From NCBI GenBank assembly GCA_030426125.1, contig JAUHZB010000008.1, forward strand, positions 1 through 35,728: a stretch of DNA of 35,728 bases, read 5' to 3'. Below, piece after piece: positions 1,581-24,855 of the stretch. The notes under the pieces are model-generated. The model saw only the letters and a program-made list of their open reading frames with translations, was not told the origin of the DNA and did no database searches. The stretch's first letter is position 1. The number at the start of each line of letters is the position of its first letter. The stretch comes from a bacterium. Lineage in GTDB: Bacteria; Patescibacteriota; Saccharimonadia; Saccharimonadales; AWTP1-31. The position numbers were made by a program, and so were the translations under genes.

Positions 1581-2263
1581 TGAGTGAGCAACCACCGCGT
1601 CCAAGCATAGATCCGGAGTTAGTAGCCAAATTAAAGAGCCAAGCCGAGAGCTATATACCTGAGGTCAGACAATTACTGCCTCAACTACCGGAAGATCTTA
1701 GAGTAAGTATAAATAATAAGGTGTTAATAAAGTCCACCGGTACTGGGGGCTATCCAGTAGCCGAAGATGAGATTGCAGTTGCTTTTGATCCTGACTTTGA
1801 TGGAGATAAAGAACAGCAGCAAGTAAACTTCAGGGGTTCAGTTTTTCATGAAGCATATCACGTAGCTCAGGGATTTGTTGGCGAAGATAGTAGATTCAAA
1901 GGTTCACCGTTCATTGAGAACGCTATATTAGAAGGCGCTGCCACAAAGTTTGAGATGATACGGGCTGGCACCAAACCGGGCTGGTCTGAATATCCAGAAG
2001 ATGAAATTGATGAATGGTTTAATGAAGTGCTCGGCATGGAATATACACCAGATGGGGAGACTTGGGGTCGTATCAAATTCTACGATCCGGAGACTAAACG
2101 GCGCTGGGTCCTATACCGAGTCGGTTGCTACGTAATAGATAATGCTCTGACCAATAGCGATCTGGAAATCGAAGATCTAGTAAATATGGAGCCTAAGGAA
2201 ATACTTAAATTGAGTAAACTCACAGGCCAATCCAAGGGCAGTGAGCAACAACCAGCTACCTGA
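1580..2263 (+). CDS. Putative zinc metallopeptidase-like protein (HExxH)
   Basis: FHEAYHVAQGF contains HExxH, with a downstream ENAILEGAA acidic motif; overlaps the end of the preceding gene. Confidence 0.5.
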   Translation: MSEQPPRPSIDPELVAKLKSQAESYIPEVRQLLPQLPEDLRVSINNKVLIKSTGTGGYPVAEDEIAVAFDPDFDGDKEQQQVNFRGSVFHEAYHVAQGFVGEDSRFKGSPFIENAILEGAATKFEMIRAGTKPGWSEYPEDEIDEWFNEVLGMEYTPDGETWGRIKFYDPETKRRWVLYRVGCYVIDNALTNSDLEIEDLVNMEPKEILKLSKLTGQSKGSEQQPAT

Positions 2264-2867
2264 TAGGATGCTGGTATTTATCTGCTAATTTCTTAACGTC
2301 CGGAATACCAAATTCTTTAGCCCAGTCTTTGAATTTCTTAGCTTGCAAAGGTAAATCAGCTTCTAGGATCTTTAAGAAGAAGTCATAGGAGTTAAACACA
2401 GGATGCTTGGAATGATAACGATCGCCGTAGCAAAGTAATCTTCCTTCAATACTATCAGGAATGTAGTCTTTATTCGGCAAAGGGAAGGGACGACTAGCTA
2501 TTTCTTCCTTGCTAAGACCCATTAAGACGTGGTCCTGAACTAGCCGGCAGATCCGACTATCTATACCCTCATCAGCTAATATCTTTGAACCAAGAATAGC
2601 ATGCTGTACATACATCCGGTCATTACTGACTTTGGCCTCTTCATCGAAGAATAGGTAGGTGCCGATATCATGAAGTAGGCAAGAGGCCCGAAGAAGGTCT
2701 TTGTCTACCTTAGAGCTATCTTTCATTTGATCAACGCACCACAAGGCTATTTCACAGACTATTTGGCAGTGGCCATAGACAAGGTTATATACTTTGTCAT
2801 TGGGGGCATATTTTCGGTGTAGCTTTTCGATTTCATCTATTGAGGGAAGCTTGCTGTTTGGTTTCAT
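2256..2867 (-). CDS. HD domain phosphohydrolase
   Basis: VYGHCQIVCEIALWCVDQ...LLRASCLLHDIGTYLF...VQHAILGSKIL...VQDHVLMG: HD-domain H...HD...H...D pattern. Confidence 0.8.
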   Translation of the reverse strand: MKPNSKLPSIDEIEKLHRKYAPNDKVYNLVYGHCQIVCEIALWCVDQMKDSSKVDKDLLRASCLLHDIGTYLFFDEEAKVSNDRMYVQHAILGSKILADEGIDSRICRLVQDHVLMGLSKEEIASRPFPLPNKDYIPDSIEGRLLCYGDRYHSKHPVFNSYDFFLKILEADLPLQAKKFKDWAKEFGIPDVKKLADKYQHPIR

Positions 2868-2912
2868 CTTATTATTCTATCATCACTACACTTCAATATA
2901 TTCACTCTTAGT

Positions 2913-3377
2913 CTAATATTGTGAATGGCCAACAATAAAGCTAGCACAGGCATAAGGTCTTCGATCTCGTGTTCGAACAAAAAGAGTAGCCTCCGCTGCA
3001 TTGTTTACTAGTTCGTAAAAACCAAATCCGTTAACATCGCCTTCAGTTAGACGAGATATTACATCTGGCCTAACGTACATTTCATTCGAATTATTCATCT
3101 TAAACGCAGCAACAAACTCTTGCTCCAAAGCAGTTTCCTCTTCTGTAGGATCATCGACATCCATGATTACATAAGAACCAAATTCTTGCGGTACTAGTTT
3201 TAGAATGCCGGCAAGGGCTAGAGTTGATGATTCGCCCTGATAGTCTACTGATTGGGCTTCTTCAGGGATACTGTAACTTGGATCTACTACTACAATACGA
3301 TCACCATGCCCAGTTTCTTCAAGGGCTTTTAGTAACTCTCCGTTTATTCCGCGGCCAATTCCTCTTAATGGTGGCAT
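2913..3377 (-). CDS. RbsD/FucU family sugar mutarotase-like protein
   Basis: N-terminus LLKALEETGHGDRIVVVDPSYSIP matches the RbsD/FucU signature (LxxLxxxGHGDxIVxxDxxxP); SD AAGGAGA upstream on the minus strand. Confidence 0.75.
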   Translation of the reverse strand: MPPLRGIGRGINGELLKALEETGHGDRIVVVDPSYSIPEEAQSVDYQGESSTLALAGILKLVPQEFGSYVIMDVDDPTEEETALEQEFVAAFKMNNSNEMYVRPDVISRLTEGDVNGFGFYELVNNAAEATLFVRTRDRRPYACASFIVGHSQY

Positions 3378-3531
3378 AACATCTCCTTATAGTTATAGAG
3401 TTATAATAATATCAAAGAAGAGAATAGTCAAATTTATACACTGAGTTTAGGATACATGGTAGCAGTTGGTGATCCTACTGCATGAGAATTGGAACGAAAT
3501 GAAGCAAGAGATAATAAGATGGGGCGAGATG

Positions 3532-3888
3532 CTAGGAACTGGTCAAAAAGCCAGTCAAGCTTTTTCCTGAGGGAGAACTACTAAAAACAGGCTGTGTTGA
3601 TACTACGCTTTGTGCGCCTTTAGCTGCTTGAATCGCTTTTGCAGACTTAACTGATTCAACTGACAATGCGACTTGAGATGTTTCTTTGGTGAAGCCAACC
3701 GCATCTCCACTTTCATCGTAGATAACACCTGATTTAAACCAACCAATATGTGTACCACTCCAGCCATAAATTAAACCGTTTTGAATGTATGCAACAGCGT
3801 CGCCATCCCATGTGTAAATCGTTTCCTTATCATCAGCAATATATGCCTGTGCGTCGCCGTTTGAATCATAGAGTGATATTTCCGCCAT
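3532..3888 (-). CDS. 4-fold beta-flower domain protein
   Basis: Four successive about 15-aa units: SLYDSNGDAQAYI / TIYTWDGDAVAYI / LIYGWSGTHIGWF / VIYDESGDAVGFT. Confidence 0.65.
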   Translation of the reverse strand: MAEISLYDSNGDAQAYIADDKETIYTWDGDAVAYIQNGLIYGWSGTHIGWFKSGVIYDESGDAVGFTKETSQVALSVESVKSAKAIQAAKGAQSVVSTQPVFSSSPSGKSLTGFLTSS

Positions 3889-3912
3889 AATTACAAGTAT
3901 ATCAAACTAAAG

Positions 3913-6900
3913 TTAGTTATCTTCTTTGTTTTCATCTGGGTCAAACGGCCGCTTAACTCCTATAACCTCAGCACCGTCAATTTTTGAGTAAGCTTGAGTT
4001 ATTTTTTGCAAAAATGCTTTCCATTGTTCGTCAGTCATATTTTGATCGTCATAAACGAGCAAGATAGCTTTCTTGGCACCAAATTTTTGTATGTAGCCCT
4101 TTAAGCTTTTATATGACTCTTTTTGATCAATGTTCCCAGAGAGATCATCATGTCCAGATCTTTTAAGTTCAACAACTACAGGGCCATAAAATCCGTAATA
4201 AACAGCGTAGTCAGGTTTTGTATCGTCCAAAGCCTCCGGCTCTCTAATAACCACAACGTCCTCTGGTCTAAAACCTGCACCATAACGAAATAGAGAGTTC
4301 TCCAGCAAAACTGCGATAGTTTTCTGCATTTTTTTCTCTTTTATAATCTTATGTCCTTCACCAATTAGTTTTGGTATGAAAATTTTTTCAATAACTTGCC
4401 TGAGGTGGTAATGGAGTTCGTAATCTGAATTGATATCAAGATAATCCTTCTTACTGAGATTGTTATAGGTGTTTATCGCTTCTGAAAACGAAGGTTTTGA
4501 TAGCTTCTCTATATAGTATTTCTTTAATTCGTTAATGTGGTGTGTGTACATTGAGGTGTTATCTGAATTAGACACCAATTTCTCAAGTTCGTTGACTGGA
4601 TCAAAGCTACCATAGACAACTAGGTTCTTATAGTATTGATCAACTGCCTTCCAAAGATACATTGCATAGTTATTCCATTTGATGCCTCTTCCTATTAACT
4701 CAAAAGAAAAATCCAACAAATCGTCAAATTTGTCCTTGTATGAAAGGTCATCCAGCTCCATTAATGGTTTCAGTAGCTTGCCATCGTGCAGTTCGCTTTC
4801 AATTGAGCTAACTCTGTGAACGCCCAATTCTTCAACAAACTCAACAGCAGAAGATTTCAAGTAGTCAAACAAGAAATCTATGGCATCTCTATTCTTAAAC
4901 TTGCTTACTAGCAGTGAATTAGCTTCGATTGCCAAGTTGTGCCACTCGTGATCTGGGTCTTTGTGCTTTCCGAATACGCGCAGAAGATTATCCTCATCTG
5001 GCATAAGATTGTTTGATACTTTTAACGCCCTCACTCTATCCCATTGATGCACAGATTTGCTTTCACTCAAGACTTTTAGGGTTTCAGCTGCTTCTTGGAT
5101 ATCGTACTTCTCGGCAAAATCTATGAGATTGCCTGGCATAAATTTCGCATTGTCATTGCTCAAGTCATCATAAAAACCACTTATTAATTTCTTCTCTTCG
5201 TCATCTAAATCTGATATTAATTTTTGGATAGCTAGGGTGTCTTCTGTATATGCGTAGGGAATTAACGAAATAATCTTTTTTCGATAGTTTGTTATTTCAT
5301 CAATGCCAGCAACAACGGCAAATTTTACTACAAGTGCAAAGATAGGTGTAAGGCTCGTAATGCTATAACGCATACCAGTTCCATTTTCACGATATTCTTT
5401 TATATCAACTTTAGTTATTGCTGGATCAAATGGGTCTAGTACTTTTTGTTTTAGTAATTCCCAAATTTCATCTAGTTGAGATTTAGAAAGCTCGAAATTA
5501 TCACTGCTACTGTCTCTGTAATTTCTTTCGATTTCTTCAACAGCTTTTATTAATGCGGGGAATGATCCCTCAGTAGCCTGCCTAATGTTGTTCATAAGCT
5601 CTTCTTCGGGTTTCCCTCTTTTTGTAGCCTCTTCTCTCTGTTGCTTAATTTGCTTGTCATGCTCGTCAAACAATTTTGGAAGTTTCTCTCTTCCGATTTT
5701 TTCTATTTGCTTTTTCTTCGGATTATCGGAGTAAATTGCACCAGTAATAATTCTAAAGAACAACCATTTTTTATCTTCAAACATATTGATGAGATCGATA
5801 ATTAAATCGATATCCTCGGGCTTTATAGTCATGGCGAGTATTGAATGTAAATTAAAAACTAAACGAAGCTCATCTGACTTAAGTGAAACCTCTAATAGAG
5901 ATCTGGAGTAGTCTTTATCATTCTCATAAACAGTCTTAACAGCTTCATCAATAAAGTCGGAGCGTCCTGCGTAATAGCCGCTGTCAAGTGAGTAAGCTGC
6001 CAATATGAGGTCTTTCAAGAGCTGTAGCAGATCTTTATTAAAATTATTCTTAAGCGAATCTAAGAATCCGTTTCTAGACTTTTCAAAACTCGACCTCCGA
6101 TAGTCAATGAACCTTTTAAGGGAGTTTGGGTTATCAATCAGCCCTTTTATGAATAGCTTGATGGATTCTGGATCATCAATTTTTTCAACCGCAATTCTTG
6201 AATATGAATCATGCTCAGTACTCAAGCCATCAAGAAAGATTGCTATTGAATCAGGGTGGTTTGGGTCGGTTTCAAATGCTATTCGCTGCACACCGTCTTG
6301 CACTAACTGATCACTCGAATCTATTTCTTTCAGTTGAGCAAGTAAATTGGAGTCTTTCATCTGCCCTAAAGTATCTATTGCAGCCCGGACCAACCTTGCA
6401 TCATTGTGATTCTTTGAAATGATTATCATTAAATTGGTGAATTCATTTTTTTTGGTCGATGTTAATTTATCTAGCTCAATGCAGTACTTGATAATACGAA
6501 GTCTTATGATTGTCATGAGCACTTCGGTATCATCGTTAAGATCAGAACTTTGCACTTCATCTAACAACTTTTTAACTTGTACAGTACTTGCATAAGATGC
6601 AGTATTAAATGCTATTTCGTCACTAATGTTCACTTGCTTAGATAAATAATAATCAACGACAGTATCAAAAACTTCAGACTTAGTTGACTGATCGATTCCT
6701 GCTGAGGTTAGACCAGTCAAGATTTTATGCCAAGCTTCGTTTTTTGTATTTCCAGATTTTACCTTATCCAAATGGATAAATTCTTTTAACAAGTCAGGAT
6801 TCTCGTCCAAAATAAATGATAGCGTGTTGTACCAAGAAGGTAGCATTTCTCTTAAGTTTGGCTCAAATGCTAAATCGTAAACATTTTGACTAATGTAAGG

Positions 6901-7920
6901 AAGTCTCGATATAGCCTTTGCAGACAAATACTCCTGTAATTCGCTGTTAGTGAAGCTTATCTTGCCATCTGTTTTAATTAGTAAACTTCGCTCATAAATG
7001 TCTTCTAGTGTGGTTTGTTGGAGTAGAATTTGCTTAACATCAGACTCACTTTTATCAATAAAGGTAATCATCTCGTCTTCACTGATACTGTTTGTCTGGG
7101 CTATCTCCATTGTTAGTGCCAAGTTTTCAAGAAAACGCTCTTTAAGCATTGCTATTTGGCGGCTAGATTTGTCTTGATTTTCAATTTCTAGAGAGCTGTT
7201 TACAAAATTATCGAAGATCGTTGATCTATTGATGTGGTTGATTATCGTGGAGTCTTTCTCGATTTCACTGGCAAGCATCTCAAGGTAGCGGGGATTTTGA
7301 ATGATGGTCTGATTGTTTTCTTCCTTCCTAAAGCTGTTTATCACAGTCTCTACTTGAGGCTTAGTTAAGCCGATGTCAACTAGAAAACCTTTAGCATCAG
7401 ACCTGCTCAGAGGCTCTATTAAAATATAGTTTGAGTCTTTGATTGATCTGAACTTTGCTTCAAATTTCTCAAAAAAGTGGATTCTACAAGAAACAACAAC
7501 CTTCAGTGCGTTCGAATAATCCATTAAGTCCTTTATTTCATCAATTACATGAGAGAGCTCATGAGTTGGAACTTCATCAAGACCATCAAGTAAGGCTAAA
7601 TTTAAATTATCAATTTGTGTTTTTGAATTTATGTAATCTTTTAGTGGTTGACCTTCACGCTTATTCTTTAGCTCAATTCGTTGTACTTTTATGCTAGCAC
7701 TAGCACACATTCTCTCAAGTTCTTTTAAAAGACGTGTTTTTCCATGCCCAGGTTCAGCTACAACAAAAGTGTTTTTGTAACTAAGTATGTTGCCGAGTTG
7801 AATCGACTTGCTTTCACTTATTATTCTTAGGTAGCCACCGTATTCACGATATTGTCTTAGCAATTCCTCGAAATCATTTTCAAGAACTAGATTGGGCTGT
7901 ATGTAGTTAGTCTCTGCCAC
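3913..7920 (-). CDS. STAND/NACHT-like NTPase with helical repeat region and C-terminal PD-(D/E)XK-like nuclease domain
   Basis: Walker A AEPGHGKTRLL, Walker B LNLALLDGLDEV, NACHT-like VVVSCRIHFF near the N-terminus; long alpha-helical middle; C-terminal KPDYAVYYGFYGPVVVELKRS (D...ExK). GTG start at 7920. Confidence 0.75.
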   Translation of the reverse strand: MAETNYIQPNLVLENDFEELLRQYREYGGYLRIISESKSIQLGNILSYKNTFVVAEPGHGKTRLLKELERMCASASIKVQRIELKNKREGQPLKDYINSKTQIDNLNLALLDGLDEVPTHELSHVIDEIKDLMDYSNALKVVVSCRIHFFEKFEAKFRSIKDSNYILIEPLSRSDAKGFLVDIGLTKPQVETVINSFRKEENNQTIIQNPRYLEMLASEIEKDSTIINHINRSTIFDNFVNSSLEIENQDKSSRQIAMLKERFLENLALTMEIAQTNSISEDEMITFIDKSESDVKQILLQQTTLEDIYERSLLIKTDGKISFTNSELQEYLSAKAISRLPYISQNVYDLAFEPNLREMLPSWYNTLSFILDENPDLLKEFIHLDKVKSGNTKNEAWHKILTGLTSAGIDQSTKSEVFDTVVDYYLSKQVNISDEIAFNTASYASTVQVKKLLDEVQSSDLNDDTEVLMTIIRLRIIKYCIELDKLTSTKKNEFTNLMIIISKNHNDARLVRAAIDTLGQMKDSNLLAQLKEIDSSDQLVQDGVQRIAFETDPNHPDSIAIFLDGLSTEHDSYSRIAVEKIDDPESIKLFIKGLIDNPNSLKRFIDYRRSSFEKSRNGFLDSLKNNFNKDLLQLLKDLILAAYSLDSGYYAGRSDFIDEAVKTVYENDKDYSRSLLEVSLKSDELRLVFNLHSILAMTIKPEDIDLIIDLINMFEDKKWLFFRIITGAIYSDNPKKKQIEKIGREKLPKLFDEHDKQIKQQREEATKRGKPEEELMNNIRQATEGSFPALIKAVEEIERNYRDSSSDNFELSKSQLDEIWELLKQKVLDPFDPAITKVDIKEYRENGTGMRYSITSLTPIFALVVKFAVVAGIDEITNYRKKIISLIPYAYTEDTLAIQKLISDLDDEEKKLISGFYDDLSNDNAKFMPGNLIDFAEKYDIQEAAETLKVLSESKSVHQWDRVRALKVSNNLMPDEDNLLRVFGKHKDPDHEWHNLAIEANSLLVSKFKNRDAIDFLFDYLKSSAVEFVEELGVHRVSSIESELHDGKLLKPLMELDDLSYKDKFDDLLDFSFELIGRGIKWNNYAMYLWKAVDQYYKNLVVYGSFDPVNELEKLVSNSDNTSMYTHHINELKKYYIEKLSKPSFSEAINTYNNLSKKDYLDINSDYELHYHLRQVIEKIFIPKLIGEGHKIIKEKKMQKTIAVLLENSLFRYGAGFRPEDVVVIREPEALDDTKPDYAVYYGFYGPVVVELKRSGHDDLSGNIDQKESYKSLKGYIQKFGAKKAILLVYDDQNMTDEQWKAFLQKITQAYSKIDGAEVIGVKRPFDPDENKEDN

Positions 7921-7946
7921 ACTTAATATTATATCTTTTTTTGGCC

Positions 7947-8051
7947 TTATTTCTCGAGTATTTTTTTAACCTCCTCTTTCTTAATTCTAGATTCTATTGA
8001 AGCTAATGTTTCAAAGTATTTTACTAATGATTTAAGTTCTTCCTTTGACAT
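7947..8051 (-). CDS. Small 34-aa helical ORF immediately upstream of the NTPase gene
   Basis: MSKEELKSLVKYFETLASIESRIKKEEVKKILEK*; not in the supplied track (below its size cut-off); ends 26 nt before the GTG of the NTPase. Confidence 0.3.
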   Translation of the reverse strand: MSKEELKSLVKYFETLASIESRIKKEEVKKILEK

Positions 8052-8056
8052 GGTTT

Positions 8057-8310
8057 TTAGAGAACGAGTCCTGAAACGTAATATTTAGGAGGCTTATCTC
8101 CAAATTTATTTTCTGCTACTGATCCTGCCTTAAATATAAGCATCAACCCTATCACAAAGTTTATGTATGGGATAAAAGCTAGCGTAGTCCACCAACCACT
8201 CATATCCATATCATGAAAGCGTTTAACTGTGCAGATGCCTTAGTAAATAAACCACAACAACATAAAAGGGATCAAGACAAACGGATTTGGTGAGCCTAAG
8301 GGAATCAAGG
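8057..8310 (-). pseudogene. DUF805-like membrane protein remnant with internal stop
   Basis: Minus strand reads LGSPNPFVLIPFMLLWFIY*GICTVKRFHDMDMSGWWTTLAFIPYINFVIGLMLIFKAGSVAENKFGDKPPKYYVSGLVL*; RxHDxxxSGWW is typical of DUF805; in-frame TAA, no start found. Confidence 0.55.
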
Positions 8311-8416
8311 TTGAACACCTTAACAGACGAGATTAACAACTTAGACCAAAGACTTGAGAGGCTAGGTATCGTAGAGAATGGTGATAGTTTTATATATTTG
8401 GATGATGGGGCAAATC

Positions 8417-8902
8417 ATGTTTAGGATTAATCTAGCCAAGAAGAGATATGGCACAGATCTACTTTTATCTGAATTGTTTAATGAGCAAACTTTCTACACA
8501 GCGTTTGTAAAAGACATAAAAGATGCAGCTCAAACTATAACAATCGAAAGTCCCTACTTAACAGAAAGGAGAGCTTTACAGTTTTCTAAAATATTTAAGA
8601 AACTCCATAAACGAGGTGTTCATATTCGTATAAATACCCGTGAGCCCAGGCATCACGACAAATTTCTTGAGATTCAAGCTTGGAAAGCGATTAAAGTACT
8701 GCGTAAATCTAAAGTTAAAGTTTACTTATGTAATGACATGAGACACCGCAAACTAGCGATTATAGATAATAAAATATTGTGGGACGGCAGCCTTAATATT
8801 ATGTCACAGTCCAATAGTAAGGAAATCATGAGGCGCTGCCACTCAGCTACGTTGTGCAAACAAATGATAACCTTCACCAAAGTAAATAATAGGTTTTGGT
8901 GA
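8417..8902 (+). CDS. Phospholipase D-like protein, single HKD motif
   Basis: HRKLAIIDNKILWDGSLNIMSQSNSKEIMRR matches HxK(x)4D with the downstream GSxN motif. Internal ATG at 8417 preferred over the track start 8378. Confidence 0.65.
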   Translation: MFRINLAKKRYGTDLLLSELFNEQTFYTAFVKDIKDAAQTITIESPYLTERRALQFSKIFKKLHKRGVHIRINTREPRHHDKFLEIQAWKAIKVLRKSKVKVYLCNDMRHRKLAIIDNKILWDGSLNIMSQSNSKEIMRRCHSATLCKQMITFTKVNNRFW

Positions 8903-8918
8903 TATACTAGGCAATATT

Positions 8919-9122
8919 ATGAGTGATCAAGAATTTAATGAGAAAGACATTGGGGTAGTTATTCGCTATCTTGAAATTCATAACCCAGAAAACGCTGACA
9001 GAGATTATGCAATACAATTACTCGAATCGATGCAAGGTCTAGCTCACGATATCTCGAAATCTGAAGAAATAAATTCTGATTTAATTCAAAAAGCACTCAA
9101 TAATCTAAAACATGATATATAG
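8919..9122 (+). CDS. Small hypothetical protein (67 aa)
   Basis: ORF with TATACT 10 nt upstream of the ATG; stop abuts the convergent XRE gene. Confidence 0.45.
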   Translation: MSDQEFNEKDIGVVIRYLEIHNPENADRDYAIQLLESMQGLAHDISKSEEINSDLIQKALNNLKHDI

Positions 9123-9332
9123 CTAAAATGGCAATATATCTGATGACTTAACGTGTAAACACTTTGCCAGACTTTCAAGTGTGGTTAAGGTTGGCATAAC
9201 CTCACCTCTTTCTATTTTTGCATAGTGGTTGGTGCTGACCCCTGCTTTACTAGCAACTTCTACTTGCGTTAAATGCTTAGCTAATCTAGCTCGTCTGATA
9301 TTTCTTGAAACCGTTATAATTAATTCTGCCAT
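9123..9332 (-). CDS. XRE-family HTH transcriptional regulator
   Basis: RNIRRARLAKHLTQVEVASKAGVSTNHYAKIERGEVMPTLTTLESLAKCLHV: canonical Cro/CI HTH. Confidence 0.9.
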   Translation of the reverse strand: MAELIITVSRNIRRARLAKHLTQVEVASKAGVSTNHYAKIERGEVMPTLTTLESLAKCLHVKSSDILPF

Positions 9333-9457
9333 CAGCGTATATGATAGCAGATTTTAATTGTAATTTAATCTACAATCCATTCTATTACGCTTACCAGTAG
9401 TTACATGCTTACTTTCAAAATGCCTATGTAGTCCTCTTTTAAAATAAGTATTATGTA

Positions 9458-9483
9458 ATATACTTGTAATATTACAAGTATAT
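9458..9483. promoter_or_regulatory. 26-bp perfect palindrome, candidate operator
   Basis: ATATACTTGTAAT|ATTACAAGTATAT between the XRE gene and the pilin-like gene; contains a TATACT -10-like hexamer. Confidence 0.6.
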
Positions 9484-9515
9484 ATGCTACCTTTCAAGTA
9501 CAGGAGGAGGAAGGT

Positions 9516-9860
9516 ATGGGTAAACTAAATAAACTCACTTTAGCGAGTACATTGCTAGCTTTTGGGTGCCTGATAGCCTTTCCCGACAGTGCTTTTGCAC
9601 AAGGCTCGGGTGACGTTGGACAAGTAGAAAACTTTATTAGGAACGTTATCCAAGCCATAGCAGGATTAGCCGGTCTCATTGCGACCGGCTTTTTTGTTGT
9701 CGGGGGGTTTGGCTATATAACCAGTTCGGGTAATCCTGAAGTATTAGACCGTAGTAAGAGAACTTTGTTCTACTCTGGTTTAGGGCTAGCAATAACCGTA
9801 GGAGCGTTTGTACTGAGTAGTATCGTTGGCGGTATTGCTTCAAGCGCCTTTGGAGGGTAA
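9516..9860 (+). CDS. VirB2/TrbC-like pilin protein
   Basis: Signal peptide ending DSAFAQ, then two TM helices (AIAGLAGLIATGFFVVGGFGYITSSGNPEVLDRSKRTLFYSGLGLAITVGAFVLSSIVGGI); strong SD aggaggagg. Confidence 0.7.
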   Translation: MGKLNKLTLASTLLAFGCLIAFPDSAFAQGSGDVGQVENFIRNVIQAIAGLAGLIATGFFVVGGFGYITSSGNPEVLDRSKRTLFYSGLGLAITVGAFVLSSIVGGIASSAFGG

Positions 9861-9868
9861 CACCAAAG

Positions 9869-10420
9869 ATGCAAGAGATTGTCACTCAACTACACGGGGT
9901 GGCAACTCTCGCGGTCGTCAATACCGACATTCAAAACTATCTGCGACCGATAATGCTATCTCTTATTGGTTTAGCTGGAGTAGTCTCAGCGTTCTTTATA
10001 ATCCTCGGTGGTATTGGCTACTCAACCAGTGCTGGAAAACCAGAAAAACTGGAGCATTCTAAGAAAGTTCTTAAGAATGCCCTTATTGGTTTGGTTATAG
10101 TCATTGCAGCAGGAACGCTCACAGCAATCCTCAGTAATGCGTACTCCAGTGGTGGCAATGCCAGTCTAGAAAATGCACCAGTGCTGACACCAATTAACAC
10201 CGATACTGGCGGTGGTGGCATTACTGAACTCCTGATCAATGCCATTATTGGTTTGTTTAAGCATATTATTGAAACCGCAGCTCAGCCATTTATTAGCGCC
10301 CTCGATTTCTTTACGCGTAGTACACCACTGATGGCAGATAACCCCAGTGTCTTTAAATTGTGGCTGACTGTCCACTCAACAACAAGACGATGCTCGATTA
10401 GTGAATATTATCTTAGCTAA
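9869..10420 (+). pseudogene. Pilin-like/VirB6-like membrane protein, truncated by a deletion junction near 10367-10376
   Basis: Two-TM pilin-like segment (GGIGYSTSAGKPEKLEHSKKVLKNALIGLVIVIAAGTLTAIL), then ITELLINAIIGLFKHIIETAAQPFISALDFFTRSTPLMADNPSVFKLWLTV; the tail HSTTRRCSISEYYLS reads out of frame through the next coding remnant. Confidence 0.55.
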
Positions 10421-10766
10421 TGTGGGGACAGTAGTTGCGTTTCGATCCGGTAGCCCCGTTGATGAAAAGCTCATATTACCCTTGTTTAGCCCCTACGTGA
10501 GTGAAGGCGAAATTGCTAATCTTCCAGCATATAACTACTACATCCGCATTGCAGCAATTGAGGCTCAAGAACCTATGTCGGGGCAAACTGTGGTATTGGA
10601 TGAAGCAACGCATAACTATACAGATAGAGTAATAGAAAGCTCGAGGCATATGTATGGAAAAACAAGTGTCCAACGCTCTCCTGCAAAAAACAAAGCAGCT
10701 GCTAAAAAAATAAATAGTAGTCATGGAAAGAAAAACTTGGTATTGCCAAATAAAAAACTTATATAG
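10368..10766 (+). pseudogene. C-terminal remnant of a VirD4/TraG-like (type IV coupling-type) ATPase
   Basis: Frame reads LSTQQQDDARLVNIILANVGTVVAFRSGSPVDEKLILPLFSPYVSEGEIANLPAYNYYIRIAAIEAQEPMSGQTVVL; resembles the C-terminus of TraG/VirD4-type proteins. In-frame TGA at 10365-10367 just upstream, no N-terminal portion. Confidence 0.5.
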
Positions 10767-10784
10767 ACGTCCAAACTGTACTCT

Positions 10785-11360
10785 CTAATCCGGAGAGCTT
10801 AGTAAGAAATTTTTTTCCTGATCTGCTAGCTTTAGTGTCAACTTGCCAATAAATATAATCGCAATAACGTTTATTACGACACTAATATATATGGCTGTGT
10901 TAATTCGTGAGGCGCTAAAATATGCTCCACTTCCCGCAATAGTTGTCACGAAGGGAGCAAGAAATGAACCACCGCAAGCAATACAGTGTGACCCTACTAG
11001 CGCACCGACACTACCGAAAGTACTTGCCTTTACTCCTTTAGCCTGCTGCTTTCTCTTTATTGCAAGTCCCATGAGCATTAGATTAATTGCTGTGACAAAA
11101 GAAAATAGAAATATTGATAAGACTCTAGGGTCAGTAACATTGCTAATAATAGTCGTGAACGAATTAATCATAAAAGAAATTTTTTCGAAAAAATTAAGAT
11201 TAGGATTAGTAAAGATAACCCCAAATAGATCAAGACTGGTGAGGTATACAAACAGCCACAACATAGAAAACCAAAGTATTATAAAGCGCCAGGGTCTTTT
11301 TCTTATTAGCAAGCTGATAAACCAAACATTTATTCTTAATGTGTCTTTTCGGTTAGCCAC
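10785..11360 (-). CDS. Hypothetical polytopic membrane protein with GSHCIACGGSFLAPF motif
   Basis: Several TM helices and a conserved-looking CxxC; start overlaps the end of the cytochrome b5-like gene. Confidence 0.6.
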   Translation of the reverse strand: MANRKDTLRINVWFISLLIRKRPWRFIILWFSMLWLFVYLTSLDLFGVIFTNPNLNFFEKISFMINSFTTIISNVTDPRVLSIFLFSFVTAINLMLMGLAIKRKQQAKGVKASTFGSVGALVGSHCIACGGSFLAPFVTTIAGSGAYFSASRINTAIYISVVINVIAIIFIGKLTLKLADQEKNFLLSSPD

Positions 11361-11799
11361 TTATTTCCCCAATTCTTAGTTCCTCCAATAGTTGACGTGC
11401 CTCTGGAGAGTGGAATTCACTAGGAAATTCAGGATTTTCTTCCCTTAGCTTATCGGCATACTCTTTAGGTGCACCTTGGTTTTTGAAGGCCTCGGTTGCG
11501 TCAACACCACAGGCTTGTAATATTAAGTCCCCACCTGGGTGTCGGTTTATAAATTCTGTTAAATCATATACATAATCATCAATTACTGTCCAACAATCTT
11601 CCTTGGATTTATGCTGGGCAACCTCACTAAGTGTATAGGTGCTAGTTTCTGGAGGTGCTTCTACTTGAGGTTTGCTATCGTCTACTTCAGCTGTATCGGG
11701 ACTGTCTATAATAGTCACGGAGCTTCGGTTTATTAGTACTCCAGCAATAGCAACAAAAATAAAGGGAAGAGCCAATAGTGCAAATACTGTCTTTTTCAT
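11353..11799 (-). CDS. Cytochrome b5-like heme/steroid-binding protein, membrane-anchored
   Basis: YTLSEVAQHKSKEDCWTVIDDYVYDLTEFINRHPGGDLILQACGVDATEAF with the HPGG heme-ligand motif; N-terminal TM/signal. Confidence 0.9.
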   Translation of the reverse strand: MKKTVFALLALPFIFVAIAGVLINRSSVTIIDSPDTAEVDDSKPQVEAPPETSTYTLSEVAQHKSKEDCWTVIDDYVYDLTEFINRHPGGDLILQACGVDATEAFKNQGAPKEYADKLREENPEFPSEFHSPEARQLLEELRIGEISG

Positions 11800-11802
11800 A
11801 AA

Positions 11803-13884
11803 TTAAATATCAACCCTCCTCAGTAGTTGCGCATTGAAGGCAACAATAATTGTAGATAGTGACATCAACGCAGCACCTACAGCAGGTGACAGTACGAAGC
11901 CGATTGATGCGAATGCACCGGCTGCCATTGGTACAGCGATTAAATTATAGCCTGTTGCCCAGACTAAGTTTTGAACCATCTTTGCGTACGTTTTTCTGGA
12001 AAGAGTGACTATCTTAGAAACGCCCCGTGGATCACTGCTGGCGAGGACTATCCCGGCTGATTCAATAGCTACATCTGTTCCAGCTCCTATCGCAATACCA
12101 ATATCTGCTTGAGTGAGAGCTGGGGCATCATTTACCCCATCACCAACCATTGCGACTTTCGACCCATCCTTTTGGAGTTTTAATACAACTTCAGACTTGT
12201 TTTGAGGTAAAACTTCAGCGTAGTATTCGTCTATACCTAGTTCTTTAGCGACCCATTTTGCTACTCCATCTGAATCACCAGTCAACAGTGCGACACGTTT
12301 GTCACTAGCTTGCAGTTTCGCTACTGCCTCAAATGACTCTGCTCGTATGACGTCGGTTATTAAAAATGCGGCTTTCACTTCTGAATTATCAAATAAGTAA
12401 ACTATAGTTTGCCCATTACTGTCTGCATCTTGGCTTGCTCTATTGAATTTGTCACTTAAGGTAATCGAGTGTTCTTGAAGCAACCTAGGTCCGCCAACAA
12501 AGTACTCTTTGGTATTAAACTCAGCTTTTGCTCCCCGGCCTTCTAGAGCACTAAACTTGCTAATTTTTGGTAAAGACAACTTCTTTTTTTCAGCAGCGTC
12601 AACAATAGCTCTAGCTATAGGATGCTCCGAATCGTGTTCAATAGAGGCAGCCAGTTTTAGATATTTTGAAACGTCATCTGAAATTATATTCACTACGCCT
12701 TGTTCACCTTTAGTGAGTGTTCCAGTTTTATCGAAAAGCACTACATCAATCTTTCTTGCTGCTTCCAAAGCCATTCTTTGTCGGATAAGTAACCCAGACT
12801 TTGCAGCTTTAGTGGTAGATATGGCAGTTACTAATGGTATAGCAAGGCCTAGGGCATGGGGACAAGCGATAATTAGAACAGCAACCACCCGCTCTAATAT
12901 ATAGTTAGCACTCTGATCACTAAACACACCCCAACCTATTGCTGTTATAAGCGCCGCTAGAACTGCAAAGTAGAATAGATATTTAGCTGCAGTATCAGCG
13001 AGCAGCTGAGTTCTTGATTTACTGGCCTGAGCATCGGCAACTAATTTCATTATTCCTGAAAGGGCACTATCTTCACCTATTTTGGTGACTTTAACCTCCA
13101 AAGAGCCACTTCCGTTAATCGTGCCGCCGATTACAAGAGCACCCTTGGTCTTGTCGACCGCTTTTGATTCACCAGTTAACATCGACTCATTTACCTTAGT
13201 AGTTCCTTTAACAACTTCACCATCAGCCGGAACATTTGTTCCTGGTCGAATAAGCACCATATCACCAATTTTGAGTTCACTCACTGCGACGGTTTTAATT
13301 TTTCCATTAATTAACAGTTCTGCTTCATCAGGTAGTAATTTGGCTAACTCTTTAAGCGCGCCCTGGGCATTGCTAATTGAAGCCATTTCCAGCCAGTGTC
13401 CTAGTAACATAATTGTAATTAAGGTGGCTAGCTCCCACCAAAAACCCATACCATCTACCAATCCAAGGGTTATCATCGAACTGTAGACAAATGCTACACT
13501 AATAGCTAGGGATATAAGCGTCATCATGCCTGGCTGGCGGTTAGCTATTTCAGCCTTACCACCCCGTAGGAATACTAAGCCTCCGTAAAAGAAAATGATC
13601 ACACCTAAGATTGCTGATATATATTGACTGCCGGTGAAACTAATGGAGGTAAAGTTTAGTAGATCTTGAATTGTTGGTGAAAAATACAGTACTGGTAATG
13701 TCAGTGCCAAAGATAGCCAAAACTTGTTTCTAAACATATTAATACTATGGCCAGCGTGTTTATCATGATCGTGACTATCGTTTGCATCTATGGTCTTTTT
13801 TTCTAAAGCCATATGACATTCGGGGCATGTGCCACGCTCATCTTTCTGAACCTCTGGGTGCATCGGGCAAACATACTTGATCAT
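11803..13884 (-). CDS. copB: Copper/silver-translocating P1B-type ATPase, CopB-like (CPH motif)
   Basis: N-terminal YVCPMHPEVQKDERGTCPECHMAL heavy-metal-binding domain; IIACPHALGLAIP (CPH); DKTGTLTKG; GDGVNDAPAL. Confidence 0.95.
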   Translation of the reverse strand: MIKYVCPMHPEVQKDERGTCPECHMALEKKTIDANDSHDHDKHAGHSINMFRNKFWLSLALTLPVLYFSPTIQDLLNFTSISFTGSQYISAILGVIIFFYGGLVFLRGGKAEIANRQPGMMTLISLAISVAFVYSSMITLGLVDGMGFWWELATLITIMLLGHWLEMASISNAQGALKELAKLLPDEAELLINGKIKTVAVSELKIGDMVLIRPGTNVPADGEVVKGTTKVNESMLTGESKAVDKTKGALVIGGTINGSGSLEVKVTKIGEDSALSGIMKLVADAQASKSRTQLLADTAAKYLFYFAVLAALITAIGWGVFSDQSANYILERVVAVLIIACPHALGLAIPLVTAISTTKAAKSGLLIRQRMALEAARKIDVVLFDKTGTLTKGEQGVVNIISDDVSKYLKLAASIEHDSEHPIARAIVDAAEKKKLSLPKISKFSALEGRGAKAEFNTKEYFVGGPRLLQEHSITLSDKFNRASQDADSNGQTIVYLFDNSEVKAAFLITDVIRAESFEAVAKLQASDKRVALLTGDSDGVAKWVAKELGIDEYYAEVLPQNKSEVVLKLQKDGSKVAMVGDGVNDAPALTQADIGIAIGAGTDVAIESAGIVLASSDPRGVSKIVTLSRKTYAKMVQNLVWATGYNLIAVPMAAGAFASIGFVLSPAVGAALMSLSTIIVAFNAQLLRRVDI

Positions 13885-14759
13885 CGAATTTTACTCCAGT
13901 TCTTTGCACTATCGGTTGTTTTATAAATCTCCAAAGACTTATTTATGAGGTACATTACATCAGCGTCTTGTGGATCATGGACTAAATACATAACTAAATC
14001 ACCGCTATAGGAATCAATATTGTCCCATGTTTTTCCTCCATCTACAGTCATCATCAGACCAGAATCTACCGTATTGACTACTAGGTTTTCACTATTACTT
14101 GGATTTACTGAAACTGTAGTGATTGTGCCAGCTAAATTTAAGCCAGACCAAGTGTTACCCTTATCGCTGCTTATCTGTAAACCTTCAGAAGTACCAGCAT
14201 ACAGAACGTTACTATTATCAGAACTTGTAGCGAGCGTATAGATATTGCTAGGAGCTGTCTGTATAATTTGCCAGTCTTTTCCTTCGTTTGTGCTTCGCTG
14301 TAGCTGTCCTTGATAGGTTCCATAAACGATATTTGGATCTACCCAACTCACAGCCATTGCGTGAAAGTCTACAGGACCATCAGCGCCAGCAGAAATCTTT
14401 TCCCAAGTTTTACCACCATCTGTGGATCTTTGGAAACCGATATTGCCACCTCTACTAGAATGACCACTACTATAAAATATGCTAGTTTCTGTCGGGTGAG
14501 CAGAAAATCCCATGTAGTCATCTTGATCATCACTAACTTGTACTAACTCATTATCATCTATCATAGCTAACAAGCCTCTATGTGTTGCAATATAGACTTT
14601 AGACGGATTTTCTCTATCTACTGCTAAACCGTGGGCATCTTGTAGTCTGGATATCGTTTCGTTTTTGTCAGACTGCTCCTCGCTGTTGTTCGGCTTCAAG
14701 GTAATTAGTAAGGCAAGTGCCAGAACAAATACTGTAGCTCCAATAATTATTTTCTTCAC
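13881..14759 (-). CDS. BNR/Asp-box repeat exo-sialidase-like (F510_1955-type) secreted protein
   Basis: Repeated S/T-x-D-x-G-x-T-W motifs: STDGGKTWEK, STNEGKDWQI, SSDKGNTWSG, TVDGGKTWDN. Confidence 0.75.
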   Translation of the reverse strand: MKKIIIGATVFVLALALLITLKPNNSEEQSDKNETISRLQDAHGLAVDRENPSKVYIATHRGLLAMIDDNELVQVSDDQDDYMGFSAHPTETSIFYSSGHSSRGGNIGFQRSTDGGKTWEKISAGADGPVDFHAMAVSWVDPNIVYGTYQGQLQRSTNEGKDWQIIQTAPSNIYTLATSSDNSNVLYAGTSEGLQISSDKGNTWSGLNLAGTITTVSVNPSNSENLVVNTVDSGLMMTVDGGKTWDNIDSYSGDLVMYLVHDPQDADVMYLINKSLEIYKTTDSAKNWSKIR

Positions 14760-14956
14760 GGTCGCTCCTTTTGGTGATGATCGAGGCTGTTGACTTCTTC
14801 TCTAGATTGTCTTGACTCGATAGAATATTTTATTATCTCAAGATTGCAACTTTTATTCTCCTTGCACCATTTCTCGCATTTTATAGCTATCGTCTCACTA
14901 CGGTAATGTAGCCCACATTCATTGCATCGATATAACTTTTTTTGATTTTCTTTCAT
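14756..14956 (-). CDS. Small zinc-ribbon-like protein
   Basis: YRCNECGLHYRSETIAIKCEKWCKENKSC; SD GGAGGG upstream favours the ATG at 14956 over the track start 14974. Confidence 0.6.
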   Translation of the reverse strand: MKENQKKLYRCNECGLHYRSETIAIKCEKWCKENKSCNLEIIKYSIESRQSREEVNSLDHHQKERP

Positions 14957-14961
14957 ATCGC

Positions 14962-15765
14962 CTACCCTCCACAAGTTGATTTTTGAAGTGGTACTAAATT
15001 ATTTAAGCGATCTTTAATCTGCTCATCGGAAGGTTGGTCTTTCTGGGCAAAGATTACTATGTTGCCAATTAGGTTATTTATCCGAGTGAGTTCGTTTTCG
15101 TCTAGATCAGATTCGGCTGTTTCTTCTTTTACGGTTGAGCCACCCCCATGTGCGTAGGCCTTTTTAAAGAATAGGTCGCTAATAGTAGAGCCTGTTTCAT
15201 CGTTTGTGGATAAATTACTTTTCTTGCCAAAGAATTCTTCCATATTTTGGTTTAGAAAATCATTCCAGTCTTTTTGCTCGTAACTGTCGGCATCACCAAT
15301 ATATACATAGTAGTTTGTGTCTTCTGAAACCTCTGGCAGTAACTGCCCGTGCGTTTTCACTGTACCCATCCTCATCATTCCATGATCAAAACGTCGCCCC
15401 AGGATATTATCCTGTCCACCTATAAAATTCCAACCATAGTATTTCAAGAACTCACCACCAGTAAGCCCTTTCCAGTGGACGTGGGTCATCTGGTCCACGC
15501 CATCATGGAAGTCTACAGGTTCTTCTGGCAATTCAACACTGCAAGAGTCGGCATTATAATTCTCTTGGAACTCTGACTTTGTGAAATCCACAGCCTGACC
15601 ATCTACAACTATCTGTGTTCGTATATGATAATGCTCAAAGGCAGGTTGTCTAATATTTTCTGGGCTAGACGCATATAGGTAGCTATAGCCAGCGCCAAGA
15701 ACAAGTAATGATACTCCTACAATGCTTAGGCCAAAAAATAGTAATCGTCTAGAACTTAGCTTCAT
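14962..15765 (-). CDS. Hypothetical membrane-anchored His-containing extracytoplasmic protein
   Basis: N-terminal TM, then EHYHIRTQIVVDGQ...QMTHVHWKGLTGGEFLKYYGW; 4-nt overlap with the upstream DUF5676 gene. Confidence 0.65.
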   Translation of the reverse strand: MKLSSRRLLFFGLSIVGVSLLVLGAGYSYLYASSPENIRQPAFEHYHIRTQIVVDGQAVDFTKSEFQENYNADSCSVELPEEPVDFHDGVDQMTHVHWKGLTGGEFLKYYGWNFIGGQDNILGRRFDHGMMRMGTVKTHGQLLPEVSEDTNYYVYIGDADSYEQKDWNDFLNQNMEEFFGKKSNLSTNDETGSTISDLFFKKAYAHGGGSTVKEETAESDLDENELTRINNLIGNIVIFAQKDQPSDEQIKDRLNNLVPLQKSTCGG

Positions 15766-16031
15766 GAATACCGCCTAGTGCTAGAGTTATTCTCAAGTAA
15801 CCAACCGAAAATGTAACCAATAAGAGCAAAAAAGGCTGAGATTGTAATTCCACCAAGAATAAAACTCTCCCAGGTTATAGCATAACTCTCAACATTCATG
15901 CCATGCATCCACCACTCAGTTATTGTCCGTGACATATCTGGGAATAGAGCCACGAATATTGAACAAGTCACCCAGATAAACGCCGTGGTTTTTGCTGATA
16001 CCATTGCTAGATTATGTTTTGATATTTTCAT
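15762..16031 (-). CDS. DUF5676-like membrane protein
   Basis: Two TM helices, FPDMSRTITEWWMHGMNVESYAITWESFILGGITISAFFALIGYIFGWL; operon with csoR. Confidence 0.6.
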   Translation of the reverse strand: MKISKHNLAMVSAKTTAFIWVTCSIFVALFPDMSRTITEWWMHGMNVESYAITWESFILGGITISAFFALIGYIFGWLLENNSSTRRYS

Positions 16032-16040
16032 AGATCCCCC

Positions 16041-16319
16041 TTATTTGTTATTCGATAGATTATATAAATCTAGTAGCTCAGTGATTAGTTCTTCTTGAGC
16101 CTTATCGTTACTGGATTCAAAGCCATCTTTAACATGTGTTCGAATATGGTTTTCTAAAATTAGTTTATTTAATGATCCGAGTGATTTTTGAATAGCTAGA
16201 CTTTGAGTTAAAATATCCATGCAATATTTTTCTTCATCAATGGCTTTTACTAGCCCCTTGAACTGGCCTTCAATTATCTTAGATCTGTGGGTTGCTCGTT
16301 TTTTAATATCTTTAATCAT
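16041..16319 (-). CDS. csoR: CsoR/RcnR (DUF156) family metal-sensing repressor
   Basis: IKKRATHRSKIIEGQFKGLVKAIDEEKYCMDILTQSLAIQKSLGSLNKLILENHIRTHV; metal-ligand pattern Cys...His...His. ATG at 16319 used, not the extended ORF start at 16373. Confidence 0.85.
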   Translation of the reverse strand: MIKDIKKRATHRSKIIEGQFKGLVKAIDEEKYCMDILTQSLAIQKSLGSLNKLILENHIRTHVKDGFESSNDKAQEELITELLDLYNLSNNK

Positions 16320-16320
16320 A

Positions 16321-16350
16321 TTGCCATTGTATACCCCATGGGGGTATAAT
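16321..16350 (+). promoter_or_regulatory. Putative sigma70-type promoter TTGCCA-18 bp-TATAAT overlapping the CsoR operator
   Basis: TTGCCA at 16321-16326, TATAAT at 16345-16350. Confidence 0.6.
16330..16348. promoter_or_regulatory. CsoR operator: TATACCCC-ATG-GGGGTATA
   Basis: Perfect 8+3+8 GC-tract inverted repeat, typical of CsoR-family operators, 11 bp from the csoR start codon. Confidence 0.8.
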
Positions 16351-16427
16351 GCAAATACTCGTATTGTACCCATATGCTGGGTTTGGAAGATAGTAAATAA
16401 ATGAATATGGGGTAAAGTATAAGTGTA

Positions 16428-16805
16428 ATGAAAAAATTAATCCAAATAGTTAGCACTACTACGTCTGCGGTATTTATACTATTTGGATTAATTTTAGTAA
16501 ACCACGTTTCAGCGATGCCGAGTGATGTCCACGATCCGAATATGAAGGTGCACTCAGCAAGAGCAAACGGTGAAAGCAAATGTGTATCACAGTGCACTAA
16601 CTCTGCACCAGGCAAGAAACAGGATGAACTTAACCTAGAACAAGACAATGAAGATGACGATCACCCGATAACTCCCTACTACGCTGCATACCTAACACCA
16701 TCTTATGACTACAGCAGTAGACTAGCCTCTATTAAAAGCAAGCAATCACTTAGACCACCTCCAAAGGTACCAATATATATCTCACTCGGTGTATTCAGAG
16801 TTTAG
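16428..16805 (+). CDS. Small predicted secreted protein with CxxxC and acidic segment
   Basis: N-terminal signal/TM, KCVSQCTNSAPGKK..., EQDNEDDDHPITPYY; divergent from csoR. Confidence 0.55.
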   Translation: MKKLIQIVSTTTSAVFILFGLILVNHVSAMPSDVHDPNMKVHSARANGESKCVSQCTNSAPGKKQDELNLEQDNEDDDHPITPYYAAYLTPSYDYSSRLASIKSKQSLRPPPKVPIYISLGVFRV

Positions 16806-16856
16806 GATAGTACTCGCTCAAACGCAGTATAAATTATTCTAATCGGAGACAACATA

Positions 16857-17549
16857 GTGAAACAATCAAAAAGCAATTCTAAATCATTCCTTTCCGTCGC
16901 AGTAATTGCGGTGGTCGGAGTATTCGGTATCGGAGCTTATTTAGTTATAAGCAACTCGCAGGAAGTATCCGCTCCCCAGTCATCACAAACAACAAATATA
17001 AGTCCTGACGCAAACGCTGAAACTGTGGGAGCTGACCTCAACTCTGAAACTTACAAAATGTACGCTGAGCTAACTGGTGAGAGCTATGATCGAACATTTA
17101 TTGCCAATATGATCGAACATCATAAGGGTGCTGTAGATATGGCTGAGGTAGCAAAAACAAATGCTTCAAGACAAGAAATCAAAGATATGGCAGACGATAT
17201 CATTAATGCTCAAACAACTGAGATTAGTAACATGGAAAAGTGGCAGAAAGATTGGGGTTATCCTGCTAGTAGCGGCGAAGCCATGATGGATCACAGCGCC
17301 ATGGGCATGATGGTTGAAATGGACACTATGACAGAGAGCTTACGGAACCTAAAAGGTGATGCGTTCGATGAAATGTTCGTGGAGCAGATGATACTTCATC
17401 ACCAGTCAGCACTAGATATGGCCACACCTGGGCAGTCAAATGCATTACACCAAGAAGTAAAACAATTAACTTTAGCAATAGTAAATGCTCAGTCAAAAGA
17501 AATAGCTCAAATGAAACAATGGCAGGAAGCCTGGGGTTTTAACTCATAG
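16857..17549 (+). CDS. DUF305 domain protein (two internal repeats)
   Basis: FIANMIEHHKGAVDMAEVAK... and FVEQMILHHQSALDMATPGQ..., each ending QW/KWQxxWG; GTG start. Confidence 0.9.
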   Translation: MKQSKSNSKSFLSVAVIAVVGVFGIGAYLVISNSQEVSAPQSSQTTNISPDANAETVGADLNSETYKMYAELTGESYDRTFIANMIEHHKGAVDMAEVAKTNASRQEIKDMADDIINAQTTEISNMEKWQKDWGYPASSGEAMMDHSAMGMMVEMDTMTESLRNLKGDAFDEMFVEQMILHHQSALDMATPGQSNALHQEVKQLTLAIVNAQSKEIAQMKQWQEAWGFNS

Positions 17550-17571
17550 AAAGACGAAGGGAGAATATTGA

Positions 17572-17727
17572 ATGAGTAATAAGCTATCTATTGGCATAAT
17601 TTCGGTATTGTTAATTGACGGGATGGGTTTTGTTATATTAGCAAAGGAACCACCAGCTGAACGCCCAGGTGTAGAGCAATTAAACATAAAGAATAGGTGG
17701 AAAAAACTTCAGATCGTTTCCTTATAA
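17572..17727 (+). pseudogene. Short ORF, probable truncated membrane-anchored protein
   Basis: MSNKLSIGIISVLLIDGMGFVILAKEPPAERPGVEQLNIKNRWKKLQIVSL*: TM anchor plus short tail with no domain. Confidence 0.35.
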
Positions 17728-17812
17728 AAACAAACCACAAATTTGAAATATATAATTGTATAAAACGACGAATATTGGCTACGTATGTATCTTGGGACGT
17801 ATAAAAATATCA

Positions 17813-18568
17813 CTAAAGTAAACTTAGCCAGTAGTCAGACCAGCGGTAAAATAACAGCATGATGATGAGAGCGTAAGTAGACGCAATAAGTTCATACTTG
17901 TAGCTAATAAATTTATTAAGACCCTTACCGAAATTTAAGTACTTATTCTCAACACAGAATGCAACCGTCAGCCAGAACATTGCAAATGTGACTAGCCAAA
18001 CGAGCATACAATAAAGGCAAAGCTTTCCGATATCAAATACACCTTGGTAGAAAAGCCAAGTACAAAACCCAGCACCAAACGAAATTCCGCCGAACAGAGT
18101 TCTCCACCATGCTTTCGTGAGCCTACGAGCGCCGGCGCCAATAGTCATAGCAGCTGTAAACACAGCCGTAAAACCAAAAATACCGATAAAGGAGTTAGGA
18201 AATCCAAATGCACTAGCTTGAGGGCTTGCAATGACTGGCGAGCAGGCCACGACCGGACTAAGGCTACAGCTTGCAACATACGACGGCTCTAAAAGTATCT
18301 CTATTTTTTCAATCGACAATATCAATGCTGCACTTATTCCAATAGCAGCTAATACAGCGAGCCATCGAGCAAGTACCACATCTGACTTTGATTTGTCGTC
18401 CCGATGCACTATGACCGTTAAGATTATTAGTCCAATTACTGCTAGATAAACATACTGCACTTTACCACGGAGTAGAAAGATCGATACAAACATATACAAA
18501 ATAGGTAAGATCCAGAAATATTGCTTTAATTTTGTTCGTAGAGAATAAACTACTTTTTTTAGTCCCAT
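17813..18568 (-). CDS. Vitamin K epoxide reductase (VKOR) family protein
   Basis: CSLSPVVACSPVIASPQASAFGFPNSFIGIFGF and LCLYCMLVW (CxxC) in a multi-TM protein. Confidence 0.9.
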   Translation of the reverse strand: MGLKKVVYSLRTKLKQYFWILPILYMFVSIFLLRGKVQYVYLAVIGLIILTVIVHRDDKSKSDVVLARWLAVLAAIGISAALILSIEKIEILLEPSYVASCSLSPVVACSPVIASPQASAFGFPNSFIGIFGFTAVFTAAMTIGAGARRLTKAWWRTLFGGISFGAGFCTWLFYQGVFDIGKLCLYCMLVWLVTFAMFWLTVAFCVENKYLNFGKGLNKFISYKYELIASTYALIIMLLFYRWSDYWLSLL

Positions 18569-19597: not shown

Positions 19598-19782
19598 AAA
19601 ACATTCATTATATTGTACTGACGATAGAAATCAACTAAAGATTAGTTCATATATGCCCGTGCACATACTAGATGTTAGCTTTATTTTCGAGTACACTAGT
19701 ACTTAATGGAAAGTTCTGCCCTCACAACAAATGCAACCATCGCACGACTACCCGTTCAGGCTGATATCAGAAAAGGTAGAGT

Positions 19783-20106: not shown

Positions 20107-20152
20107 TTTTCTATAGTTTCACCTATGGTCATTAAACAATTAAGGAGAAATT

Positions 20153-20911: not shown

Positions 20912-20941
20912 AAACTTAAGTTGTATAAAAGGTGTGGTAAA

Positions 20942-22060: not shown

Positions 22061-22107
22061 GTAACTTAAGCTAGGACAGTAATGATCAATAAACAGAGGC
22101 TAATATA

Positions 22108-22998: not shown

Positions 22999-23063
22999 TC
23001 GGCAGGCCAAAAAACAATATACTAACACGAATGCGTTCTTTGGTAGTAGCTTTTCAGCTGTAT

Positions 23064-24389: not shown

Positions 24390-24460
24390 AAGATTGTGTT
24401 TATCATTATCTTTGTACTTTTATTATATACAAAAACTATACTTAAACCATTCCACTCTTA

Positions 24461-24841: not shown

Positions 24842-24855
24842 CGCATATTACTCGA

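Follow-up and report, generated by a model that had tools for sequence, protein, structure and literature searches.

Among the Avs (AVAST) STAND NTPases, a large STAND sensor is coupled to an effector, sometimes a nuclease, and this effector is N-terminal. Bacterial NACHT proteins have also been described with the effector at their N-terminus, and in bNACHT25 and bNACHT32, bacterial NLR-related proteins of clade 6, the NACHT module is joined to a PD-(D/E)XK DNase, with DNA being degraded on infection (PMC12169576). Two collections of proteins recorded in NCBIfam under the same description, 'NACHT domain-containing antiphage protein', tell a different story: EruA (NF058535, 1318 positions, cut-off 1000 bits; the name is also borne by an unrelated regulator of E. 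coli) and HyoA (NF058534, 1430 positions, cut-off 1200 bits). We took as reference a true EruA (L038, 1033 bits) and two true HyoA proteins (L042 and L044, 1224 and 1400 bits), all of which pass the NCBI cut-offs. In the three of them the Walker A motif lies within the first 75 residues or so of the called frame, and a D...ExK signature is found near the C-terminus. Because EruA and HyoA place the NACHT module first and the nuclease last, the rule of an N-terminal effector (PMC12169576) already has named exceptions.

The DNA analysed here, a stretch of 35,728 nucleotides that we name the window, comes from a genome of 902,582 bases, presumably that of a CPR bacterium in view of the first-pass annotation and of this small size, and codes for a protein that belongs with these exceptions. 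The window protein is 1335 residues long, begins with a GTG codon and is read in an unbroken frame; its features are collected in Table 1. We understand it, with a probability of roughly three in four, as a one-gene immune sensor resembling the NLR proteins, carried as cargo by an integrated mobile element and equipped with a predicted nuclease as effector.

Table 1. Features of the window discussed in the text (nucleotide positions in the window; residues refer to the window protein).
Feature	Position	Strand	Residues	Remarks
Insert holding the NACHT-nuclease gene, 27.66 kb	1581..29240			Bounds: stop of the DUF3048 gene, 3' end of tRNA-Glu
NACHT - helical solenoid - predicted PD-(D/E)XK protein	3913..7920	(-)	1335 aa	Complete gene
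Short leader	7801..7920	(-)	1-40	YIxPN-like motif, conserved; effector domain absent
NACHT NTPase core	7375..7800	(-)	~41-182	
Helical domain after the NTPase	7186..7374	(-)	~183-245	AlphaFold secondary structure; boundaries approximate
Winged-helix-like region	6895..7185	(-)	~246-342	Ends with NSELQEYLSAK, a NACHT-type 'xxQEYLAA' motif
Helical solenoid, candidate sensor	4453..6894	(-)	~343-1156	Model to residue 725; weak HEAT_2
Predicted C-terminal PD-(D/E)XK-type nuclease	3916..4452	(-)	1157-1335	
SoFic-type Fic protein, second candidate defence gene of the insert	24856..25992	(-)		PADLOC SoFic, E 1e-102
Large serine recombinase	27566..29350	(+)		Frame runs into tRNA-Glu and ends past it

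A NACHT switch at the N-terminus

The first-pass annotation of this DNA had read a STAND-type NTPase from a Walker A motif, AEPGHGKT, placed at about 7735-7758, and a Walker B motif, LALLDGLDE, near the N-terminus. The position given for the former is exact (residues 55-62), while the latter is found at residues 108-116 (7573-7599). Both motifs, with D112, D115 and E116 of the acidic DxxDE Walker B, are invariant in five homologues from several phyla, as is the sensor-type SCR triplet (144-146), which argues that these motifs are not there by chance. To this are added a QEYL-type motif and the helical and winged-helix domains that follow the NTPase, so that the signature of a NACHT-type STAND NTPase extends over residues ~41-342. 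Residues 1-725 were modelled with AlphaFold (pLDDT 78), and with Foldseek this model retrieved, as its top matches, NLRP3, NLRP9, NLRP7, NLRC4 and NOD2, with E values from 2.6e-9 to about 1e-5. Sequence profiles are less eloquent: Pfam and PADLOC have little to say of the window protein taken alone, members of the family match the Pfam NACHT model only under its cut-off (E 5.8e-5 at best), and within PADLOC no model covers the window protein and no Avs model matches it. Supported by its predicted structure and by the match of an NCBIfam antiphage NACHT model described below, the STAND assignment holds, and the N-terminal part may be taken as a NACHT/STAND NTPase.

Only some 40 residues precede this domain. 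They begin with a YIxPN-like motif (residues 6-10) that aligns with the starts of the homologues, and upstream of the GTG codon the open frame continues for just 15 codons; no effector has therefore been overlooked at the N-terminus. A 34-codon open reading frame, MSKEELKSLVKYFETLASIESRIKKEEVKKILEK, lies directly upstream on the same strand (7947-8051(-)).

Downstream of the switch, the long helical middle that the first reading had proposed is helical as far as it was modelled, the AlphaFold model being all-helical from residue 343 to its end at residue 725. It is weakly reminiscent of HEAT repeats (Pfam HEAT_2 at residues 504-542, E 0.0036), and this solenoid is our candidate for the sensor of the protein.

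A predicted nuclease at the sensor end

The motif KPDYAVYY...VVVELKRS, in which a PD-(D/E)XK nuclease had initially been seen, occupies residues 1235-1255, inside IREPEALDDTKPDYAVYYGFYGPVVVELKRS (4156-4248). It belongs to a C-terminal domain of 179 residues whose putative active site would be made of E1227, D1237, E1251 and K1253, the last two forming the E-x-K pair. These four residues are kept in all seven aligned sequences, a set in which a different NACHT partner is represented, and invariance of the D, E and K across such a set shows that the motif is not fortuitous. The predicted order of secondary structure elements, a-b-b-b-a-b-a-b, contains the a-b-b-b-a-b core of the superfamily, with the D and the ExK on the expected strands, in a model with a pLDDT of 63 overall and of 73-89 across most of the core. 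Family members match PDDEXK_3 of Pfam (E 0.0011) and the restriction-endonuclease domain of SfsA (E 0.0027). Comparison with solved structures is less telling: EcoT38I is the best Foldseek match of the C-terminal model (E 0.012), with EcoO109I, a CdiA-CT nuclease and MUS81-EME1 also at the top (E 0.01-0.05 for all of them). Such weak E values mean that the structural match by itself is no proof of a nuclease. What upholds the first-pass reading, and supports a predicted PD-(D/E)XK-type nuclease, is the conservation of residues taken together with the order of the predicted strands and the matches to profiles.

PD-(D/E)XK folds can be inactive, and this, with the weak structural match, is what would speak for a quite different protein, namely a STAND regulator or toxin-like component of housekeeping or of stress responses, where a degenerate PD-(D/E)XK domain would bind nucleic acid and leave it uncut. 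Invariance of the catalytic D, E and K in seven proteins that use two different NACHT partners is hard to reconcile with a degenerate domain, and we consider this explanation distinctly improbable; the distribution of the family, to which we now turn, bears on it as well.

A mobile insert at a tRNA gene

Homology with a genome of the same genus (G001) stops at position 1580 of the window and restarts at 29241; in that place G001 carries some 1 kb of different DNA. The GC content of the NACHT-nuclease gene is 36.3%, against about 43% for its flanks. The large serine recombinase that runs into the tRNA is likely to be the integrase of the insert. A duplicated attachment core was looked for, and none was found; large serine recombinases use very short attachment cores. 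In another genome (G003) a recombinase 62% identical sits at the same tRNA and is accompanied by different cargo. More generally, the tRNA-Glu site behaves as a hot spot in the family genomes examined, the cargo between the DUF3048 gene and a histidine kinase (window 1580-29241) being variable.

A survey for defence-island neighbours, as suggested by the first-pass annotation for homologues, points to a defence-type setting: the SoFic-type gene shares the insert at tRNA-Glu, and the Arcobacter plasmid copy described below sits among the PADLOC candidates PDC-S06 and PDC-M60A. Toxin-antitoxin-like genes, read as such from sequence, adjoin three other copies (L006, L007 and L021). Yet a place in the insert is not in itself a proof of defence, because metabolic and metal-handling cargo is found there too. 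T4SS pilins and a replication-relaxation-like protein are likewise encoded in it.

Several other genes of the window deserve a mention. The NACHT gene is succeeded, after 24 bases and in the same orientation, by a gene for a 4-fold beta-flower protein (3532-3888(-), PF21784, E 2.7e-28), and then by RbsD/FucU-like and HD-domain genes, in an arrangement that is not common to homologous loci. The gene at 8378-8902(+) codes for a single PLD-like domain similar to the C-terminal portion of MkoC (PADLOC E 5.7e-12) and to DpdK; G003 and G004 have relatives of it, 42% and 63% identical, close to that same conserved DUF3048 gene. A response-regulator protein contains proline/alanine/threonine-rich repeats in its tail (31167-31712). 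We also asked whether the NACHT gene has a conserved operon partner and discarded the idea, as the neighbours vary across L002, L006, L007, L021 and the window, and absence of a common partner gene fits a single-gene system.

Distribution and exchange of modules

Full-length homologues, 22-30% identical to the window protein, are found in several phyla, a count that rests on the titles of metagenome-assembled genomes and on one plasmid record. The first relative that was found, on an Arcobacter plasmid, is full-length and 26% identical overall. An alignment-based scan gave a full-length copy with 30% identity in a Pseudomonadota assembly (L007), a relative in a Campylobacterales assembly (L006) and another, incomplete at a contig end, in a Clostridiales assembly (L005), and whole-genome searches added L021 (G966), a hybrid (L022, G937), a remnant (L023, G956) and L010 (G453). 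By contrast with this wide reach, the gene is present in a single one of the 198 nearest genomes, that of the window itself, and absent from the other 197; phylum-wide, 2 of 287 genomes have the family, the window's own counted. This patchy spread fits horizontal transfer, and is no pattern for a housekeeping function. Single-protein scans of genome contigs and viral contigs, and searches in phage and viral collections, returned no relatives, and searches of PDB sequences yielded nothing of use.

The hybrid L022 (6081-9818(-), 1245 aa) is particularly instructive. Its nuclease is 46-48% identical to those of the L006, Arcobacter and L021 copies, and its N-terminal NACHT is EruA-like (E 1.2e-27), the tree also grouping it alongside EruA and HyoA. 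As the same nuclease is there joined to a different NACHT, it must be seen as a separable module. At a site syntenic with that of L022, L023 (6036-6569(+)) keeps a nuclease remnant only, both loci being flanked by the core genes coaBC and uppS (names read from sequence): this locus is one that has been gained and lost.

L010 (8647-11637(-)), from the phylum of the window genome, illustrates another extreme. It is reduced to the solenoid, without Walker motifs and without nuclease, and adjoins a serine recombinase and a terminase-small-subunit-like gene. Four bases past it is a gene for a protein of 268 residues with hydrophobic C-terminal stretches (7836-8642(-)), and the pair may represent a possible exchange of effector. 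Lacking NTPase and nuclease alike, L010 shows that the solenoid can be maintained where the mechanism proposed below is absent, which lends something to the housekeeping or stress interpretation discussed above.

The company kept by these genes also raises the question of their target. The NACHT-nuclease might mainly act on plasmids or on rival integrative elements, guarding the element that carries it rather than shielding the cell from phages: the insert around the window gene bears a recombinase and occupies a tRNA hot spot, a plasmid carries one of the homologues, and L010 has the mobile neighbours just mentioned. However, phage defence genes ride the same elements, so that location does not discriminate, and EruA and HyoA, the nearest relatives to have received names, bear an antiphage label. 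We therefore regard conflict between elements as the main function to be unlikely, if worth keeping in mind, and an immune sensor directed at phages as the better account.

Finally, of two near-identical Arcobacter copies, that of DSM 115972 is intact and that of AZ-2023 (L003 2995-7040) is broken into two open reading frames. This split copy and the L023 remnant tell us that loss occurs in the family, and could invite the view that the window gene is itself a decaying or non-functional passenger of its island. Its intact frame of 1335 codons, with all switch and nuclease residues kept at ~30% identity to its kin, makes this scarcely credible.

A proposed mechanism

Taking the immune sensor as a working model, we may sketch how it would operate. 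At rest, the NACHT switch would be bound to ADP and the C-terminal nuclease kept inactive. The solenoid, some 800 residues long, would sense a sign of a phage or of another invading element, upon which ADP would be exchanged for ATP and the protein would, we infer, oligomerise. The C-terminal PD-(D/E)XK domains, thus brought together, would cut what is presumably DNA, and the outcome might be either clearance of the invader through destruction of its DNA or abortive infection through death of the infected cell. Protection against phages, by analogy with the function after which EruA and HyoA are described, is the most likely role of the window protein.

Comparison with known systems

EruA is among the closest of the described systems. 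Like the window protein, it begins with a NACHT domain that no effector precedes, has ~1.3-1.4 thousand residues and finishes with a D...ExK nuclease-like end, and both its NACHT domain and its C-terminus are homologous to those of the window protein. HyoA has the same domain order and size. In profile comparisons with hhalign, the N-terminal profile of the family aligned with EruA/HyoA over residues 37-361 with a probability of 96.5%, and the C-terminal profile did so at 95.5% (E 1.4e-8), the catalytic positions falling in register; as controls for the latter, 40 shuffled versions, a reversed one and eight pieces taken from the solenoid never exceeded 1.7%. The nuclease of the Arcobacter member also matches HyoA at 1306-1383 (E 7e-6). 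Homologous NACHT and nuclease domains are thus found at the two ends of a single protein of ~1.3-1.45 thousand residues, as in EruA and HyoA. The window protein nevertheless differs from both. The EruA model matches it over residues 38-260 only (E 1.5e-12), with 46.5 bits where the cut-off is 1000; the HyoA model, with its cut-off of 1200 bits, gives no match at E 0.01; and in the NACHT tree the window family makes a clade of its own (100/99), apart from EruA and HyoA and from four ordinary NACHT proteins.

The first-pass annotation had stressed that the order of sensor and effector was reversed with respect to Avs proteins. The reversal is real, against Avs and bNACHT proteins alike, but it is not new, and the idea that it might be unique to the window protein was rejected, since bona fide EruA and HyoA share it. 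Set against the way in which bacterial NACHT proteins have been described (PMC12169576), the layout is unusual, but it extends beyond the window protein. We therefore view the latter's family as new and distinct, though of a kind already known among antiphage NACHT-nucleases, its part in defence being likely by analogy. It adds a previously unnamed family to a small set of NACHT antiphage proteins with a C-terminal nuclease, with members spread over several phyla and one of them in a genome of ~0.9 Mb, and the L022 hybrid shows that the nuclease was exchanged between different NACHT switches.

In bNACHT25 and bNACHT32 a NACHT switch is similarly joined to a PD-(D/E)XK nuclease, and Avs proteins similarly combine a large STAND sensor with an effector. 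The difference is one of geometry: their effector is N-terminal, with the sensor of bNACHT25 and bNACHT32 at the C-terminus, whereas the Walker A motif of the window protein is already reached at residue 55 of a conserved start and its nuclease is C-terminal. This raises the question of how a switch of the NLR type controls an effector placed at the sensor end, when the textbook arrangement has it at the N-terminus. A tentative and rather doubtful generalization would unite the window family, EruA, HyoA and the L022 hybrid in one superclass, where the solenoid itself frees or assembles a nuclease located at the sensor end, where NACHT, solenoid and nuclease are exchanged as modules, and where solenoid-only types such as L010 act with a separate membrane effector. 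If it were true, the geometry of activation in this superclass would be unlike that of the inflammasome-like Avs and bNACHT proteins.
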